A stretch of DNA of 64,000 nt from Methylobacterium organophilum (GTDB lineage: Bacteria; Pseudomonadota; Alphaproteobacteria; Rhizobiales; Beijerinckiaceae), in the NCBI RefSeq assembly GCF_022179465.1, contig NZ_BPQV01000003.1:186001-250000 (forward strand), given 5' to 3'. This document shows, one piece after another, positions 5,261 to 12,980 of the stretch. A program made the position numbers and the translations under genes. The notes beneath the pieces are model-generated. The model made no database searches. It was not told where the DNA came from and worked only from the letters and a program-made list of their open reading frames with translations. Position 1 is the first letter of the stretch. Every line of letters begins with the position of its first letter.

Positions 5261-5998
5261 TCACGCAGATGGCGCGAAGACGGCGGCGATCTCGGCGGGC
5301 CGCATCACGCGGCATTCTCCCGCCGGTAGATCCGCCGGCAGGTCGAGGCCGCCGACCCGGTCGCGGTGGAGCGCCGTGACGTGATTACCCAACGCCGCGA
5401 ACATGCGGCGGACCTGATGGTAGCGCCCCTCGTGCAGGGTCACGGCACAATGGGTCGCGTCCTGGCCCTCGAAGCCGACCGGCAACAGGGGCTTGTCCTC
5501 GCCCTCCAGCATCAGCGTCCCGGAGGCCAGGGCCGCCGCCTCGTCGCCCCGGAGCGGCCGGTCGAGCGTCACCTGGTAGCGCTTGGCGACCTTGGCCTTG
5601 GGCGAGATGATCCGGTGCAGCAGCGCGCCGTCATCGGTGAGCAGGAGCAGGCCTGAGGTCTCCTTGTCGAGGCGCCCCACCGTCGAGAGGGCGGGGTCGC
5701 GCCGGCGCCAGCGCTCGGGCAGCAGGCCGTAGACGAGCGGCCCCGCCTCCTTGTGCGAGCAGGTCACGCCCAGCGGCTTGTGCAGCATCAGGCAGAGACC
5801 GGGCAGGGGATCGAGGGGGGCGCCGTCGATCCTCATCCGCTCGGGCAGGTCGGCCTCGAGGGCGATGCGGCCGCCGGCATCGTTCAACGCCGCGCCGTCG
5901 AGGGTGATGCGACCACCCCAGGCCAAAGCCTGGATCTCCCGGCGGGAGCCGTAGCCGAGATTGGCGAGGAGCTTGTCGAGACGGACGGACTTGCTCAT
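5261..5998 (-). CDS. RsuA/RluB-family pseudouridine synthase
   Basis: Converts a uridine of ribosomal RNA to pseudouridine. The 245 residues comprise an N-terminal S4-like RNA-binding domain (SVRLDKLLANLGYGSRREI, about 4-22) and a catalytic domain with VGRLDKETSGLLLLT (about 107-121), where Asp in RLDxxTSG is the catalytic residue. YHQVRRMFAALGNHV is the usual KRNHQIRRM-like element. The length and the small insert favour RsuA-type over RluB. AGAGGA precedes the ATG. Its start overlaps the end of the RsmC-like gene by 4 nt (ATGA), so the two rRNA-modification genes are translationally coupled. Confidence 0.9.
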   Translation of the reverse strand: MSKSVRLDKLLANLGYGSRREIQALAWGGRITLDGAALNDAGGRIALEADLPERMRIDGAPLDPLPGLCLMLHKPLGVTCSHKEAGPLVYGLLPERWRRRDPALSTVGRLDKETSGLLLLTDDGALLHRIISPKAKVAKRYQVTLDRPLRGDEAAALASGTLMLEGEDKPLLPVGFEGQDATHCAVTLHEGRYHQVRRMFAALGNHVTALHRDRVGGLDLPADLPAGECRVMRPAEIAAVFAPSA

Positions 5999-6939
5999 CC
6001 GTTCCTCTTGCCGAAGGCCTTGCCGGAACCCGTGGCCTTGCGCGCCTCGATCACCTTGTAGCCGTCGCCCGCGGCCCGCTGCGTCACCTCGCGGAAATGC
6101 TCCCGCAGGGTGGCCTCGTAGGGCAGATGGGTGTTGGCGGTGAGCCAGAGGCTGCCGCCGGGGCGCAGGACCTGGGCCGCCCGGGCAATGAAGGCCTGAC
6201 CCAGGCTGCGGTCCTCGGCGCCCCCGTCATGGAAGGGCGGGTTCATCACCACGAAGTCAAGCCGCGACAGGGTCTCGTCCGGCTGGCGCAGGTCGGCCCA
6301 GCGGAAGCGCGCGCGGGCGTCCCCCACGTTGCGCTCGGCCATGGCGACGGCGCGCCGGTCGATGTCGATCATCGCGAGCTCGGTCACCGCGGGCGAGCGC
6401 AGCACGGCCATGGACAGGATGCCGAGGCCGCAGCCGAAATCGGCGCCGCGGCCGGACAGCATCGGCAGGGTCTCGATCAGCAGGGCCGAGCCGGGATCGA
6501 GACGGTCCCAGGAGAAGATGCCAGGCTGGGTGCACAGAGCCATGTTGTCGATGTGGCGCGGCGCCCCCTCGGCGATGGCTTCCTCAAGCCCCTCCGGCCG
6601 TTCCGGCCGGGACAGGAGGCAGATCCGGTGATGGCGGCGCGCCTCCTCGGCGATCACGGCCCCGAAGGCGGCGAGCTCCTTGGCGAGGCGCGCCCCGCCC
6701 CGGTCCTTGGGCGCCAGCGCCACGCAGCGCCCGCCCGGGGCGAGCCCGCGCAGTGCCAGTGCGAGGGTGTAGCGCCGCTCGATCGTGCCGGCGGGGGCGA
6801 GCACCACGGCGCCGTCGAGGCTGCCGGGGCTCACATCCTCCAGGCGCGGGGAGCCGGGAAAGAAGGGCGAGACCTGCGCCGCGCCGGAGGCGACCTCCAC
6901 GAGGCCGGCCGGGGGGAGGCCGTAGACGACGTGCTGCAT
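5995..6939 (-). CDS. RsmC/RlmG-like class I methyltransferase
   Basis: S-adenosylmethionine-dependent methyltransferase of the small-subunit rRNA (guanine-N2) type. The N-terminal half is the degenerate methyltransferase-like domain typical of RsmC. The C-terminal half has the SAM site GRGADFGCGLGILSM, an acidic IDIDRRAV loop and the catalytic NPPFHDGG motif (NPPF marks N-methylation of a base). I start at the ATG at 6939 (MQHVVYGLPP); a GTG at 7002 would add 21 residues but has no ribosome binding site. The exact target guanine cannot be read from sequence. It is coupled to the downstream pseudouridine synthase by an ATGA overlap. Confidence 0.85.
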   Translation of the reverse strand: MQHVVYGLPPAGLVEVASGAAQVSPFFPGSPRLEDVSPGSLDGAVVLAPAGTIERRYTLALALRGLAPGGRCVALAPKDRGGARLAKELAAFGAVIAEEARRHHRICLLSRPERPEGLEEAIAEGAPRHIDNMALCTQPGIFSWDRLDPGSALLIETLPMLSGRGADFGCGLGILSMAVLRSPAVTELAMIDIDRRAVAMAERNVGDARARFRWADLRQPDETLSRLDFVVMNPPFHDGGAEDRSLGQAFIARAAQVLRPGGSLWLTANTHLPYEATLREHFREVTQRAAGDGYKVIEARKATGSGKAFGKRNG

Positions 6940-7120
6940 CTTTTCTGGAATTCGGACTTCAAACGCTTCGGTCCGGGAACGCACGTCGTGGCCGGAGGTC
7001 ACGCGCGAAGCGGTGCCTCGGGTCGCAAACGGACGAATCGACCGGGGATAACTCTCGTATAGCCGGATTCGGCGGCGTCCGGGACGGCTTTTCGCGGGCT
7101 GCCCCGGCCTCGGCCGGCCG

Positions 7121-8599
7121 TCAGTGGCCGGCCGCGTCCAGGGCCGCGCCCGGCTTGTCGTAGCTGCCGAGCCGCTCGACCATGGTGGCGGTGGCCGCGT
7201 TCATGCCGACGACCTCCACCGCGACGCCGTGATGGCGGAACTTCAGCACCACCCGGTCGAGGGCGTTCACGCTGGTGATGTCCCAGAAATGCGCGGCCGA
7301 GAGATCGATCACGATACGGTCGAGATCGGTTTCCCGGACATCGAAGGCCGCATGGAAGGCCTCCGCCGTCGCGAAGAAGATCTGGCCGCTGACCCGGTAG
7401 GTGCGAGCCCGCCCCGCGCGCGTAGAGGTGACGCCGAAGAGGCGCGTCACCTTGTGGGCGAAGAACAGCCCGCTCAGCGCCACGCCGAACAGCACGCCCC
7501 GGGCGAGGTCGTGGGTCGCCACCACCACCGCGACGGTGCCGAGCATGACGACGCTCGACGAGCGCGGATGCGTGAGGAGCGTCCGCAGCGACCTCCACTG
7601 GAAGGTGTTGATCGAGACCATGATCATCACGGCGACGAGCGCGGCCATGGGGATCTGCGCCACGTAGGGCCCCAGCACCACGATCAGGAACAGCAGGAAG
7701 GCGCCGGCCCAGAGGGTCGAGAGCCGTCCGCGGCCGCCGGAGGAGACGTTGATCACCGACTGGCCGATCATCGCGCAGCCAGCCATGCCGCCGAGGAAGC
7801 CGGAGGCGATGTTGGCCGCGCCCTGGCCGGCGCATTCGCGGTTCTTGTCGGAGGTGGTGTCGGTCATCTCGTCGATGATCGCCGCCGTCATCAGGCTCTC
7901 CAACAGCCCGACCATGGCGATGGTGGCCGATGTCGGCAGGATGATTCGCAGGGTCTCCAGGGTGAAGGGCACCTGCGGCAGGGCGAACCAGGGCAGCTCG
8001 CTCGGCAGCGCGCCCATGTCCCCGACCCGATGGATCGGCAGGTCGAGAGCCATCGCCACCGCCGAGAACAGCACGATCGTCACCAGGGGCGAGGGGATGG
8101 CCCTGGTCAGGTAGGGGAGCCCGTAGATCACCACGAGGCCGGCCGCCGTCATCGCGTAGACGATCATGCCCTGGCCGATCAGCTCCGGCATCTGGGCGAG
8201 GAAGATCAGGATCGCCAGGGCGTTGACGAAGCCGGTCACGACCGAGCGCGAGACGAAGCGCATCAGGTTGCCGAGCCGGGCCGCGCTCGCGGCGAGCTGC
8301 AGGAGGCCGGTGAGGATGGTCGCCGCGTAGAGGTAGGCGACGCCGTGCTCCTTCACGAGGCCGGTCATCAGGAGCGCCGTCGCTCCGGTCGCCGCCGAGA
8401 TCATGGCGGGGCGGCCGCCGGCGAAGGCGCTGACGACGGCGATGCAGAACGAGGCATAGAGCCCAACCTTCGGGTCGACGCCGGCGATGATCGAGAAGGC
8501 GATCGCCTCAGGGATCAGCGCCAGGGCGACCACCGTTCCGGCGAGCAGCTCACGGGTGACGTTCGGAGCCCATTCGCTCCGCAGACGGACGAGATTCAT
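7121..8599 (-). CDS. SulP-family anion transporter with STAS domain
   Basis: Inner-membrane anion transporter of the SLC26/SulP family (sulfate, bicarbonate or similar anions; the substrate cannot be told from sequence). The 492 residues begin with the family signature region [20 protein letters not shown], followed by 10-12 hydrophobic segments to about residue 385. A C-terminal STAS domain (about 395-480) has [19 protein letters not shown], resembling the anti-sigma-antagonist fold. No carbonic anhydrase neighbour is present to suggest bicarbonate. The gene is monocistronic: 181 nt before the RsmC-like gene and 358 nt after the AT-rich islet. Confidence 0.93.
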
Positions 8600-8957
8600 G
8601 GAGGCAGCGCTTTCGTGCTCCCGCGCGCCACGCGGCGCCGACAGGAGGCATGAGCCCGCGCGGCAGCGGCGCAGGCGGATGAGGGAAAGGACGACGGAGA
8701 GCGCGCGGCTACGGCGGCGTGGGCCGGCTCTGGCGGGTGGCTCGATCCTGCGTCATGGGTCGGCGTGTAACAGGTTCATGCTGCGGCGCAATCGGAAAAC
8801 GCTCACTTCCGCCCCTGAACGAATTTCAAAAAAGCAACGTGAAATTTTATTAGTAGTACGGATCACCGAATTTATGAATTTTAATAAAATACTCAAATGC
8901 CAATTTTATAGGTTAAAATCATGATTTTAATTTTTCATTTTTATAATAGATTATAAT
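8600..8957. other. junction between sulP and the AT-rich islet
   Basis: Up to about 8815 the sequence is GC-rich like the chromosome and should contain the sulP promoter, though I see no clear -35/-10. From about 8820 it turns abruptly AT-rich. No tRNA, integrase or direct repeat that would mark an attachment site was found at this edge. Confidence 0.5.
8913..8930. repeat. 18-bp perfect palindrome downstream of the nucleosidase gene
   Basis: TTAAAATCATGATTTTAA is self-complementary. It lies 28 nt past the nucleosidase stop codon, inside AT-rich DNA. A second palindrome (TAGATTATAATCTA, 8947-8960) overlaps the stop codon itself. They could act as weak hairpins or protein sites. In such AT-rich DNA short palindromes also arise by chance. 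Confidence 0.5.
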
Positions 8958-9809
8958 CTAGAAATTTAAATCCATACAATCGTCCTCCGAGAGATCATTT
9001 ATGAAACTTGCCAGACATCTTGCAGCATTACGAGCAGCATAACCTCGCCAATTTGTTTTACCGTGATCGGAATTGCTCTTTCCAGAGGCTGGATCAGAGA
9101 GTCCTCGGAATACCAATCCATCGATGGGATGCCTCCGCAGATCTGAAAAAGCCTGCAATGCACGCAGAAATCCATACATCTCCATTTCTACAGCACGATA
9201 CTCGCGATCGGATGCGACAAGCTCTCGCCTAGTCTCGTCACAATCCAACACCAAATCCCAACAAAATATTTTTCCAACCTCACTTTCGCTTTCTCTAGGC
9301 AGAGAACAATCTCCCAGAAACTGCCTCACATCAGATCCACTAAAGTCAATAAAATTGCTAGCAAAATAATCACTGGCCCTATCAAACATTTTTCTAGATA
9401 TAACCGGCCCATTTGGCATTGTAGATTCTAATTTTTTTCCCGAAGACATTCTGGTAAATGATTTATAGGCATAGGACCCAGACACAACGACATCGCCAAG
9501 CTGGCGCTTATCGTGGTTCATGTTTCCAGCAATTCCACACAAAAATGCAAATCTAGGATTAAATCTAGACAACATATTTGTCGTCTCAATAGCGCAGGCC
9601 AAGTTGCCAGCTTCATAAATAGCCCGCACCGCAATACGGGGCCTCCAGTTTTTACTGGTGTTAATCTCTAAAAGAGTAGTACTGCCAGGCAAATCGCGCT
9701 TATTGGCAGCAGGCCATTTAGATGAAAATTCCTTCAGAATAGCCTGTCGCTCAAGCTTTGGTATAATAGTAATAACAACTATGTCGGCGCTTGACTCGAT
9801 ATCTGACAT
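8958..9809 (-). CDS. nucleoside phosphorylase / MTA-SAH nucleosidase superfamily protein in AT-rich islet
   Basis: A 283-residue protein with the PNP/UDP-phosphorylase fold. Seen: an N-terminal IIPKLERQA strand and helix (Glu20 in the place of the MTAN catalytic-pocket Glu), FLCGIAGN (89-96; the GxAG ligand loop), VEMEMYGF (207-214; Glu210 at the ribose-binding position) and FRGLSDPAS (235-243; Asp239 at the purine-N7 acid position). The active-site residues thus look intact. Housekeeping MTAN is about 230 residues; the extra length is in loops. The ATG at 9809 is preferred over a TTG at 9824 because GAGAAG lies just upstream. It begins 8 nt after the upstream gene stops, so the two form an operon. 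Stand-alone nucleosidases in such islets are often effectors that cleave nucleotides; that role is inference. Confidence 0.75.
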   Translation of the reverse strand: MSDIESSADIVVITIIPKLERQAILKEFSSKWPAANKRDLPGSTTLLEINTSKNWRPRIAVRAIYEAGNLACAIETTNMLSRFNPRFAFLCGIAGNMNHDKRQLGDVVVSGSYAYKSFTRMSSGKKLESTMPNGPVISRKMFDRASDYFASNFIDFSGSDVRQFLGDCSLPRESESEVGKIFCWDLVLDCDETRRELVASDREYRAVEMEMYGFLRALQAFSDLRRHPIDGLVFRGLSDPASGKSNSDHGKTNWRGYAARNAARCLASFINDLSEDDCMDLNF

Positions 9810-9817
9810 TACGCTTC

Positions 9818-10303
9818 TCAACAAATGATAGTGCGCCTAAAATCCTTACATCTAACCATGATTCTGCCAATCTCAAAACGCATCTTCATATCTCTTAGCT
9901 TAATTCGTCCAACCGCCTCATATTTTTCTCTAAATAGAATCCCATTTGTGTCTAAAGAATAGATAACATAAAAACATCCAGGACCACTACCGACCAAGTC
10001 TATACTGCAGGCAAATATATCACCGAGCATAAATCTTACGGCAGTCACAACTCGAAGCAATCGCCAACCGGGATGGCCGGGCCATTCCACGACAATTTCT
10101 ACAGGCGATACGCGCTCTCTCGAGCGCCTATCCAAAAGAGCGAGCTCGACTGTTTCTGCAGCCCGCATATTAGCATCCCATGACTTGACCCGATTAATCC
10201 GGACCACCTTCAACAGAATCTCAGTCAAAAAATCAATCAAAAAAATCACCTGTACAGCAAAAACCTCTTGAAAATCAGGCTGCCTATGTAGATGCAAGTG
10301 CAA
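9818..10303 (-). CDS. unrecognised protein, partner of the nucleosidase
   Basis: I recognise no family. The frame is 161 codons from a TTG at 10303. Other possible starts are GTG 10249 (143 residues) and ATG 10168 (116 residues); none has a strong ribosome binding site. Residues about 15-35 (VFAVQVIFLIDFLTEILLKVV) are hydrophobic and could be one membrane or amphipathic helix. The rest looks like a small alpha/beta or beta domain (VEIVVEWPGHPGWRLLRVV, then GCFYVIYSLD, ending in a basic tail RCKDFRRT). It is AT-rich like the nucleosidase gene and lies just upstream of it in one transcript, suggesting a sensor, inhibitor or membrane anchor. Confidence 0.6.
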   Translation of the reverse strand: MHLHLHRQPDFQEVFAVQVIFLIDFLTEILLKVVRINRVKSWDANMRAAETVELALLDRRSRERVSPVEIVVEWPGHPGWRLLRVVTAVRFMLGDIFACSIDLVGSGPGCFYVIYSLDTNGILFREKYEAVGRIKLRDMKMRFEIGRIMVRCKDFRRTIIC

Positions 10304-10326
10304 AAATCTGAAATGAATTTCATAGT

Positions 10327-10332
10327 ATTATA
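10327..10332 (-). promoter_or_regulatory. candidate -10 box of the islet operon
   Basis: On the minus strand the sequence is a perfect TATAAT, placed so that transcription would begin just before the TTG at 10303. No good -35 lies at 16-18 nt. In AT-rich DNA the match could be chance. Confidence 0.35.
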
Positions 10333-10443
10333 TTCGAACATTAGCAAAAAATTGGCGCCCAAAAAAGAAAAATCAAAACAAAATCATCAAATTTTTATAA
10401 AATTCCCGATACATCAAGAGCGATTTAGAGAACTAAAAACTTG

Positions 10444-11403
10444 TCAGTTGCGGGGGAACTCCAGCCCCATCTCCCGGTAGCGGGCGGGATCGTCGGCCCA
10501 GTTCTCGCGCACCTTCACGTGCAGGAACAGGTGCACCTTGGCCTCGGCGGCCTCGGCGATCTCCAGCCGGGCGGCCTGGCCGATCGCCTTGATGGTCTGG
10601 CCGTTCTTGCCGAGCACGATGGAGCGCTGGCTCTCCCGCTCGACGAAGATGGTCTGCTCGATGCGCACCGAGCCGTCCTGCTTCACCTGCCACTGGTCGG
10701 TCTCGACGGTGGAGCGGTAGGGCAGCTCCTCGTGCAGGCGGTCGTAGATCTTCTCGCGGGTGATCTCGGCGGCGAGCATGCGCAGGGGCGCGTCCGAGAC
10801 CTGGTCCTCCGGGTAGAGCCAGGGCCCCGCGGGCATCATCGCGGCGAGCGACTTGCGCAGCGCCTCGATGCCGTCGCCGTTGAGCGCCGAGATCATGAAG
10901 GTCTCGGTGAAGGGGATGCGCTCGTTCAGGGTCTTGGCGAGGCCGAGTAGCTTCTCGCGGGGGATCAGGTCGATCTTGTTGAGCACGAGCAGCTTCGGGC
11001 GCTTCACGTCCGGGACGCGCCCGAGCAGCCGCTCCACCTCCTCGTCCACGCCCTTGCGCGCGTCGATCAGCAGGCAGATCGCATCCGCATCCGCGGCGCC
11101 GCCCCAGGCCGACTGCACCATGGCCCGGTCGAGCCGGCGCTTGGGCGCGAAGATGCCGGGCGTGTCGACGAGGACGATCTGCGCCGAGCCCTCCATCACG
11201 ATGCCGCGCACCAGCGCCCGGGTCGTCTGCACCTTGCGGGAAACGATCGAGACCTTGGTGCCGACCAGGGCGTTGAGCAGCGTCGACTTGCCGGCATTCG
11301 GCACGCCGATCAGGGCGACGAAGCCGGCCTTCGCATCGGCCGGGATCTGCGGCAGCAGGCTTTCCGGCGCGGCTTCGTGTCCGTGGTCTTCGTCTTCAGC
11401 CAT
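10444..11403 (-). CDS. era: GTPase Era
   Basis: Ribosome-assembly GTPase that binds the 3' end of 16S rRNA. In its 319 residues: G1 GVPNAGKST (33-41), effector-loop VSIVSRKVQTTR (51-62), G3 DTPG (80-83), G4 NKID (142-145), and a C-terminal KH RNA-binding domain (about 225-310) with REKIYDRLHEELPY before it and the expected FVERESQRSIVLGKNGQ segment. The start overlaps the end of rnc by 8 nt. The gene ends exactly where the AT-rich islet begins, so its downstream neighbour has been displaced. Confidence 0.97.
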   Translation of the reverse strand: MAEDEDHGHEAAPESLLPQIPADAKAGFVALIGVPNAGKSTLLNALVGTKVSIVSRKVQTTRALVRGIVMEGSAQIVLVDTPGIFAPKRRLDRAMVQSAWGGAADADAICLLIDARKGVDEEVERLLGRVPDVKRPKLLVLNKIDLIPREKLLGLAKTLNERIPFTETFMISALNGDGIEALRKSLAAMMPAGPWLYPEDQVSDAPLRMLAAEITREKIYDRLHEELPYRSTVETDQWQVKQDGSVRIEQTIFVERESQRSIVLGKNGQTIKAIGQAARLEIAEAAEAKVHLFLHVKVRENWADDPARYREMGLEFPRN

Positions 11404-12178
11404 CGCTGTTCCCGTCCTGGGTTGCGCCGATCCCCTCCCGTGCCAGCACGGACTGGGCAGCCTCCTGCTCGGCGACGCGCTTCGAGGAGCCCGTGCCGAA
11501 ACCGGGCTCGATGCCCTTCACCCGGACGGCGATTCGGAAGACCGGAGCATGATCCGGGCCGGAGCGCTCCACCACCTCGTAGACCGGGATCGGCAGGGAA
11601 CGGGCCATCGCCCATTCCTGAAGAGCCGACTTGGCGTCGCGCCCGCGGGGCGCCGCCGTCTCCTGCTCCGGCCGGAAGGCATCGCGCACGATCGCCTTGG
11701 CCTTGTCGAAGCCGGCATCGAGATAGACCGCGCCGAGGATCGACTCGCAGGCATCGGCGAGGATGGTCTGGTTGCGCCGCCCCCCGCCCTGCACCTCGCC
11801 GATGCCGAGCTCAAGATGCGGGCCGACCTGCCACTGCGTCGAGACCGCCGCGCAGGTCTCCCGGCGCACGAGACCGGCAAGGCGGCGCGACAGCTCGCCC
11901 TCGTCGGCCTCGGGAAAGGCAGCATAGAGCAGTTCCGCCACGGCGAGGCCGAGCACACGGTCGCCGAGGAATTCCAGTCTCTGATAGCTGCCGGTGCGGC
12001 CCGAATTCCCCGCCTTGCTGACATGGGTCAAGGCGAGCCGGAGCAGGTCCGGATCGGCGAAGTCGTGGCCGATGCGCGCCTCCAGCTCCTGCAGGGAAGG
12101 CCGGGGGCGCTGGGCGCGGCGGGCGCGGCTCGAGGGGCGCGGGGCTCCGCCGTCTCCGGGTGCGGGTGCGTCGCTCAC
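11396..12178 (-). CDS. rnc: ribonuclease III
   Basis: Double-strand-specific endoribonuclease that processes rRNA precursors. The catalytic domain has the signature QRLEFLGDRVLGL (about 66-78), with the metal-ligand Glu and Asp, and ADACESILGAVYLDAG further on; a double-stranded RNA-binding domain follows (about 180-250). I chose the GTG at 12178, which lies one base beyond the lepB stop; an ATG at 12217 would overlap lepB by 38 nt and add a non-conserved segment. The resulting 260 residues include a Pro/Arg-rich N-terminus of about 28 residues not found in E. coli. Confidence 0.95.
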   Translation of the reverse strand: MSDAPAPGDGGAPRPSSRARRAQRPRPSLQELEARIGHDFADPDLLRLALTHVSKAGNSGRTGSYQRLEFLGDRVLGLAVAELLYAAFPEADEGELSRRLAGLVRRETCAAVSTQWQVGPHLELGIGEVQGGGRRNQTILADACESILGAVYLDAGFDKAKAIVRDAFRPEQETAAPRGRDAKSALQEWAMARSLPIPVYEVVERSGPDHAPVFRIAVRVKGIEPGFGTGSSKRVAEQEAAQSVLAREGIGATQDGNSDG

Positions 12179-12179
12179 A

Positions 12180-12980
12180 TCAGTGGATCGTCGAGAACAG
12201 GCGGCCCCAGCGGACATCCGCCGGCCAGCGCCAGATCTGCCAGGCGGGCGTTCCCTCGTCGATCGAGAAGAAGATCATTTCCGCCCGGCCGACGAGGTTC
12301 TCGAAGGGAACGTAGCCGACGCTGGCGAGGTCCCGCGAATCCGTGGAATTGTCGCGGTTGTCGCCCATCATGAAGAAGTGGCCCGGGGGCACCGTGTAGA
12401 GCTCGGTGTTGTCCCAGAAACCGTGGTCGCCGTCGCGCTCGATCGTGCGGTGCACGACGCCGCCGGGCAGCGTCTCCTGGTACTGGGGCACCTTGGTCGA
12501 CTGCCCGAAGGCGTCGAAGGTCTCGTAATCGGCGATGCGCTCGCGCTTGACCGGCTTGCCGTTGATGTTGAGCACGCCCTCGATCACCTGGATCTTGTCG
12601 CCGGGCAGGCCGATCACGCGCTTGATGTAATCCGTCGAGTTGTCCTTGGGCAGCTTGAACACGGCGATGTCGCCGCGCTTGGGCTCGGCGCCCCAGATCC
12701 GGCCCTGGCCGCCGATCGGCAGATACTCGCCCAGCGGCAGGGAGTATTTCGAGTAGCCGTAGGAATATTTCGAGACGAACAGGTAGTCGCCGATCAGGAG
12801 TGTCGGGATCAGCGAGCCCGAGGGGATGTTGAAGGGCTGGAACAGCAGCGTGCGCACCACCAGCGCGATCAGGAGGGCCTGGACGCCGACCTTCACGGTC
12901 TCGCGGATGCTCGCCCAGGTGCCGGTGTCGGAGGACCGGAGGGCCGGCTTGGTCTCGTGATCCACGCGCGCGGTTTCCAT
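12180..12980 (-). CDS. lepB: signal peptidase I
   Basis: Membrane-bound serine protease that removes signal peptides from exported proteins. One N-terminal membrane helix (about 31-48) precedes PSGSLIPTL (Ser56, nucleophile), DYIKRVIGLPGD (Lys120, general base) and GDNRDNSTDSR, the conserved box E. The 266 residues match alphaproteobacterial LepB. The ATG at 12980 gives a normal short cytoplasmic N-terminus; the frame is open to 13106 but without conserved residues. Part of the acpS-lepB-rnc-era block. Confidence 0.96.
   Translation of the reverse strand: METARVDHETKPALRSSDTGTWASIRETVKVGVQALLIALVVRTLLFQPFNIPSGSLIPTLLIGDYLFVSKYSYGYSKYSLPLGEYLPIGGQGRIWGAEPKRGDIAVFKLPKDNSTDYIKRVIGLPGDKIQVIEGVLNINGKPVKRERIADYETFDAFGQSTKVPQYQETLPGGVVHRTIERDGDHGFWDNTELYTVPPGHFFMMGDNRDNSTDSRDLASVGYVPFENLVGRAEMIFFSIDEGTPAWQIWRWPADVRWGRLFSTIH

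Follow-up and report, generated by a model that had tools for sequence, protein, structure and literature searches.

The AT-rich islet at positions 8820-10443 of the window, the 64,000-nucleotide stretch of the Methylobacterium organophilum genome analysed here, is probably a self-contained, horizontally moving two-gene conflict module of the defence type, in which a PNP-superfamily effector would be controlled by a small partner protein. The effector, P0001 (8958-9809, minus strand), is a stand-alone nucleosidase, and the putative controller, P0002 (9818-10240, minus strand), is encoded directly upstream of it. PNP effectors are themselves already known in conflict systems; what is new here is the occurrence of the same two-gene arrangement in five other alphaproteobacterial loci. 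A conflict module with a small controller is proposed on the grounds that the enzyme is akin to defence effectors and retains its catalytic positions, that a small gene constantly precedes it, and that the pair occurs sporadically and in the form of islets.

The islet, which lies between sulP and era, has a GC content of 0.40 compared with 0.70 for the 64-kb window. When 400-bp stretches were taken in steps of 100 bp, all of those below 0.55 GC overlapped the islet, the rest of the window remaining at or above 0.55. Averaged over 300 bp, GC is about 0.70 until near 8820, drops there to 0.34-0.47 and regains its level at the stop codon of era (10444), so that the sharp edges described in the sequence-only reading, with the stop codon as the right-hand one, are borne out. 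At third codon positions the two islet genes have a GC content of 0.39 and 0.41, compared with 0.96 for era and 0.94 for sulP. The era gene (10444-11403, minus strand) is intact; sulP (7121-8599, minus strand), the left neighbour, which takes its name from the same earlier reading, has a host-like GC content. Both islet genes are on the minus strand, and the stop codon of the upstream ORF (9818-9820) lies 8 nt ahead of the ATG at 9809 of the PNP gene, in support of the single operon that had been proposed. In 2000 first-order Markov simulations of the islet, no stop-free run in any of the six frames exceeded 213 codons, whereas the PNP frame itself has 292. At 169 codons, the partner frame is not decisive by length alone, as 161 codons were reached by 1.9% of the simulated islets.

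The AT-rich leader between the era stop codon and the partner gene (10241-10443, minus strand) contains no convincing promoter, and its repeats are short and AT-rich only. It folds no better than shuffled sequence, 170 of 200 shuffles folding as well, and a search of Rfam for an RNA antitoxin or riboswitch gave no match at the gathering threshold; both of these candidates were set aside. No convincing mobility repeat was found at the ends of the islet, and neither an integrase or transposase nor a defence-like gene beside the islet was recognised by eye among the ORFs of 6500-12500. Integration borne by a tRNA was also rejected, there being no tRNA in the 64-kb window or in the five loci scanned.

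Comparison with relatives, in which each species is represented by a single genome, points to a history of the junction that is particular to the source lineage. P0001 has no match (E 1e-5) in the 111 other genomes of the genus, and is thus found in 1 of 112 when the source genome (5.06 Mb in 113 contigs) is counted. Likewise, blastn (E 1e-3) detects no islet DNA in the 69 era-region loci of 65 relatives, four of which are represented twice, and neither sulP nor P0001 was found at the era site in any of the 65. In these genomes the usual gene after era is one for a methyltransferase: the match to this gene (5995-7002 in the window) lies at most 414 bp past the era match in 56 relatives, 973-2478 bp from era in seven, and outside the compared stretch in two. 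The sulP-era junction is therefore not ancestral. A sulP homologue is found in 61 of 70 genus genomes (source genome counted), and in the relatives it is located elsewhere. Since both sulP and the islet are missing from the era site of relatives, both appear to have entered the junction in the source lineage. The sequence-only reading had used sulP-era as its reference junction and would have been refuted by the presence of the two genes there in all relatives; the islet genes are not common to the relatives, but the junction itself cannot be taken as ancestral, as sulP is itself out of its usual place. The foreign origin suggested in that reading is supported by the islet GC together with the absence from genus relatives. 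In six relatives (L047-L050, L056 and L057) about 2.4 kb separates era from the methyltransferase gene, so the junction varies in other lineages too; in L047 the gap holds a 695-aa ORF on the opposite strand which, by eye, we take to resemble an S9-type peptidase.

Beyond the genus, remote matches to P0001 (26-30%) occur in three other genomes among 397 of the order (source counted) and in three other genomes among 398 of the phylum, one of which is also in the order set. A 474-aa ORF with identical scores was seen in a genome of the same order (G146, locus L007) and on a Bradyrhizobium contig (L087). Among plasmids, P0001 matches 29 records, all at below 60% identity, from Agrobacterium, Borrelia, Nostoc and Calothrix. 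One remote relative was found among viral contigs (L167), and a search of these contigs with the module profiles gave no match.

The PNP ORF (8958-9824) contains the motifs GIAGN, VEMEM and LSDPA. The ATG at 9809, behind GAGAAG, is the preferred start; the TTG at 9824 would yield a protein of 288 aa. Searched as a protein with hmmscan, P0001 scores 27.1 bits with Pfam PF01048, above the cut-off of 25.1 that defines membership of this superfamily, compared with 22.5 bits, under the cut-off, in a six-frame search of the genome. Numbered from the TTG at 9824, the residues E25, M214-E215, R240 and D244 are kept, of which E25, M214-E215 and D244 correspond by alignment to E12, M173-E174 and D197 of E. 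coli MTAN. From work on MTA/SAH nucleosidases we take the Glu and the Asp to be catalytic and the Met-Glu to bind the ribose, and all of these positions are present in P0001. In an alignment of 106 rows, which includes near-copies and is drawn mostly from a scan keeping the best 80 of at least 158 relatives, E25 is kept in 102 rows, M214 in 105, E215 in 105 and D244 in 103; the conservation of M214-E215 is partly by construction because the scan pattern surrounded these residues, and E25 and D244 lie outside it. The earlier description of a nucleosidase with intact pocket residues is thus upheld. A Lys five residues past the catalytic Asp, present in all six module PNPs and in 73 of the 106 rows, was considered as a triphosphate mark and dropped because the Detocs-like protein of the pTi plasmid has Asp in that column.

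In PADLOC, the best model for P0001 is PDC-M60C (2.9e-13), and a PN-superfamily effector model is also matched (1.5e-7). PDC-M60C is, we take it, DtcC of Detocs, a system of three genes encoding kinase-like, response-regulator and regulator-effector proteins. Like P0001, DtcC has an effector domain of the PNP superfamily in which the catalytic Glu and Asp and the Met-Glu are found. On pTiBo542, all of a locus of three genes is matched by PDC-M60A, B and C, and its layout is presumably that of Detocs; P0001 is 23% identical to the Detocs-like pTi protein over 161 aa. In contrast to Detocs, the islet has two genes rather than three and lacks a receiver domain, and neither of its genes matches PDC-M60A or B. 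The three-gene locus of pTiBo542 also ends in a PNP effector, and 310 nt upstream of it is an HNH-annotated gene with a PNP domain, so that this stretch (L013, 5608-12460) has two neighbouring PNP effectors. According to PMC11249213, ATP is degraded by the best-described Detocs effector, and a table in a review (PMC10952713) lists PNP effectors in CBASS, Detocs, pAgo, DRT8 and NLR-like systems with (d)ATP degradation as their activity.

Other PNP relatives have the features of a second set of conflict systems: L007 carries HNH and EAD7, and L014 adjoins GAP1-N1 and DO-GTPase genes. PNPase effectors with effector-associated domains and GAP1/DO-GTPase conflict systems are treated by Kaur et al. 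2020 (PMC7159879), and the enzyme in these systems belongs to the same superfamily. The relatives of this kind compared here are 24-30% identical in sequence. Those examined have EAD/HNH domains or GTPase/GAP1 neighbours, whereas in the islet the PNP stands alone and its small companion lacks an EAD match; neither islet gene gave an EAD or NTPase match of the EAD/GAP1/VMAP kind. The genes of L014 (637-5880, from Leptospira phage record KF114878.1) encode a DO-GTPase, a GAP1-N1/EAD1 protein and a PNP protein beside an annotated integrase, and form a conflict system of the type described by Kaur et al. The EACC1 two-gene system is similar to the islet in layout, having a small constant 5' gene and an effector 3' gene; section 33 of PMC7159879 gives EACC1 a conserved TM helix and the 3' gene frequently a caspase-type domain. 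The module differs from it in that the partners have no Pfam match, five of the six have no strong hydrophobic stretch, and the 3' gene encodes a PNP rather than a caspase or cyclase.

The five other loci in which a stand-alone PNP protein is preceded, at a distance of 3-112 nt, by an ORF of 139-160 aa are L088 (Tistlia), L097 (Asticcacaulis), L108 (an uncultured alphaproteobacterium), L169 and L170, with inter-gene gaps of 112, 20, 14, 3 and 11 nt, respectively. Counting the islet, such an ORF is found directly upstream in all six loci, which were chosen for it. Both genes are below the GC of their flanks in all five, the values for partner, PNP and flanks being 0.60/0.62/0.72 in L088, 0.50/0.56/0.58 in L097, where the difference is slight, 0.47/0.48/0.59 in L108, 0.39/0.47/0.57 in L169 and 0.45/0.46/0.58 in L170. 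Over wider stretches there is a local GC dip at L169 and at L170, where it reaches a neighbouring small gene, and a weak one at L097. Beside the L170 pair is another small gene of lower GC (L177, 10551-11290); there, next to thiC, the end of this gene appears by eye to be repeated in broken form, which suggests insertion at that gene. On plasmids, the L088 PNP matches 14 Agrobacterium records, and those of L097, L108 and L169 have no match at E 1e-5.

These loci came from several searches. Scanning contigs with P0001 alone returned no relative; with a six-sequence alignment at least 587 stretches were matched, of which at least 158 encode relatives, and the best 80 were kept. Fourteen short PNP proteins among the matches listed were inspected, one of them (L015) from the phylum search and the others from the contig scan, and in L088, L097 and L108 an upstream ORF of 139-151 aa was judged comparable; the 162-aa ORF upstream in L015 seems by eye to resemble a Vsr-type endonuclease. 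A profile built from P0001 and the L088, L097 and L108 proteins matched 7 of 367 genomes of the class (source counted), among which L169 and L170 show the arrangement, G146 and G621 have other architectures and G889 (L173) begins at a contig end, its upstream side missing; G951 (L174) was left out of this comparison. A search for further copies (E 1e-12) returned only the known ones, in 1 of 36 genomes of the order of G745 (L169) and 1 of 101 of the family of G564 (L170). In a survey of 92 PNP ORFs, which includes near-copies and leaves out the window, L169 and L170, ten have an unmasked ORF of 100-170 aa directly upstream. These are L088, L097 and L108, the response-regulator gene of the Detocs-like locus three times (L013, L092 and L093), and L015, L141, L165 and L132, whose upstream ORFs we take to be unrelated to the partner. 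A pair consisting of this small partner and a PNP was not found described in the literature searched.

In a tree of 96 rows, the six PNPs, a group picked by architecture in which L169 and L170 had been found with a profile of the others, make up one side of a branch (SH-aLRT 80, no bootstrap), and none of 500 label shuffles gave a value as low. The module PNPs are placed among the PNP effectors of Detocs, EAD and GTPase conflict systems. P0001 is one of several long rows, and the program gave a warning that long branches come together. When nine long rows, L170 among them, were removed, the remaining five PNPs were again on one side in the resulting 87-row tree (SH-aLRT 95), for which the same warning was given for P0001 and L088.

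The longest frame for the partner runs from a TTG at 10303 and gives 161 aa. Probably, however, the true start is not this one but the TTG at 10240, which stands behind AGGTGA at a spacing of 5 nt and yields a protein of 140 aa. P0002 has no usable match in Pfam, PADLOC, NCBIfam, PHROGs, solved structures, plasmids, phages or viral contigs. None of the six partners has a match in Pfam, which we believe contains an EACC1 model, and neither an antitoxin family nor a DNA-binding domain was found in them. Matches of P0002 to PHROG 22532 (E 0.32), of the L088 partner to PHROG 22105 (E 0.15) and of the L097 partner to PDC-M05B (E 0.031) were treated as chance, and matches of P0002 in the order at L011 and L012 were discarded, being weak and in frames with internal stops. 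The 161-aa reading has one hydrophobic stretch (residues 16-34, mean 1.99), from which the 140-aa start removes six residues; five of the six partners are without any 19-residue stretch above 1.7 hydropathy. The hydrophobic patterns of the partners can be read as a ferredoxin-like fold, but such a fold is not put forward here.

Clear homology between partners is seen for L097 and L169 (blastp 2e-16). P0002 aligns with the L169 partner at a blastp E of 0.011 (hhalign 0.006, probability 6%) and with that of L088 at 0.066 (hhalign 0.028, probability 1.8%). Its alignments to L088, L097 and L169 span the same Gly-Cys motif, the one to L108 stops just short of it and the one to L170 lies elsewhere. 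In shuffle tests of P0002, p is 0.005 for L169, 0.019 for L088, 0.16 for L170, 0.22 for L108 and 0.30 for L097, and the summed similarity of P0002 to the partners is equalled or exceeded in 0.1% of 5000 shuffles and in 0.57% of 700 real ORFs. Ranked against 1746 background ORFs, P0002 comes first with L169 (E 3.4) and second with a profile of four partners (E 0.3); with L088, L170, L097 and L108 as single queries it ranks 21st, 91st, 187th and 263rd. The partners of L088, L108 and L170 gave no significant E-value with any profile tried. With clear homology confined to L097 and L169 and weak signals otherwise, a single family of six partners is no more than plausible.

How the module might work is suggested by its relatives. 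The stand-alone PNP nucleosidase encoded by the 3' gene would strip a nucleotide or nucleoside of its base, adenine nucleotides being the most likely target, and by analogy with the Detocs PNP effector the substrate may be ATP. The small 5' protein would bind the nucleosidase and either hold it off, like an antitoxin, or switch it on, like a sensor, upon the entry of an invader. Once set free, P0001 would deplete the nucleotide pool and bring growth or phage production to a halt. The anti-phage or toxin role put forward in the sequence-only reading is better founded than before, as the nearest PADLOC models and several relatives are PNP effectors and the arrangement occurs in five more loci, and we infer it from these comparisons. 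A more specific proposal, which is possible but which we hold only tentatively, is that the islet represents a minimal two-protein anti-phage system in scattered Alphaproteobacteria, in which a new small family would sense infection directly and release a nucleotide-cleaving PNP, the pair spreading as bare AT-rich islets of 1.5-2 kb into housekeeping regions without a recognised mobility gene. The order of the genes, small one first, the 8-nt spacing and the solo AT-rich islets would also fit a type II-like toxin-antitoxin pair, in which a labile antitoxin neutralises a nucleosidase toxin for the sake of self-maintenance, phage defence not being the main purpose. This explanation, which overlaps strongly with the conflict module preferred here, we judge unlikely: the compact two-gene layout is that of type II systems, but no known toxin or antitoxin family is matched, the partners are without a DNA-binding domain, and the kin of the effector belong to regulated defence systems. 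It is highly improbable that the nucleosidase acts by making a signal, a free base or sugar phosphate, rather than by killing, with the partner as the receiver. Kaur et al. 2020 (PMC7159879) do propose for PNPase domains a second messenger produced by base release, but the islet contains no further effector gene, and the activity given for the best-described Detocs effector is the degradation of ATP (PMC11249213).

The remaining explanations concern whether the two genes have anything to do with conflict, or with each other. Among solved structures, those nearest to a six-row profile of the module PNPs belong to MTA/SAH and related nucleosidases (40 distinct sequences at E <=0.001; P0001 alone has no match at E 0.01), as would be expected of a transferred metabolic salvage enzyme, an MTA/SAH nucleosidase or similar. 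P0001 is far removed from these enzymes, scoring 27.4 bits with the MTA/SAH nucleosidase model PRK05584 against an equivalog cut-off of 169. Moreover, the host has four other PF01048 members, a purine-nucleoside phosphorylase, an MTA phosphorylase, an AMP nucleosidase and the hopanoid-associated phosphorylase HpnG, all of which outscore P0001 in the six-frame genome search. The sequence-only reading would have been refuted had P0001 proved to be the only MTA/SAH nucleosidase of the strain, and the presence of these four enzymes speaks against that; P0001 is therefore unlikely to be the housekeeping enzyme. As a constant small partner gene would also be unexpected beside a salvage enzyme, we consider this origin very unlikely. 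The partner ORF might alternatively not be a gene, or be unrelated to the other upstream ORFs, so that the nucleosidase alone matters. The weak sequence signal and the frequency of 161-codon frames in simulated islets are in keeping with this, but an ORF of similar size stands at the same place in all six loci of the group, a good ribosome site sets the protein at 140 aa, close to the 139-160 aa seen elsewhere, and few shuffles or real ORFs reach the summed similarity given above. We therefore regard a spurious or unrelated partner as quite improbable.

If the islet is indeed a conflict module, a pair in which one protein of about 140 aa both senses and controls would be a very small switch for a PNP enzyme, and small enough for complete solving and testing. 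The six concrete operons also make it possible to test whether solo AT-rich islets in GC-rich genomes are a store of defence genes yet to be described. A further clade of short PNP proteins was seen in sphingomonads and others (L015, L099, L101, L111 and L158, of which L101 was omitted from the tree as a near-copy of L099); in each case the PNP gene is followed by a large ORF recognised by eye as encoding a P-loop protein.
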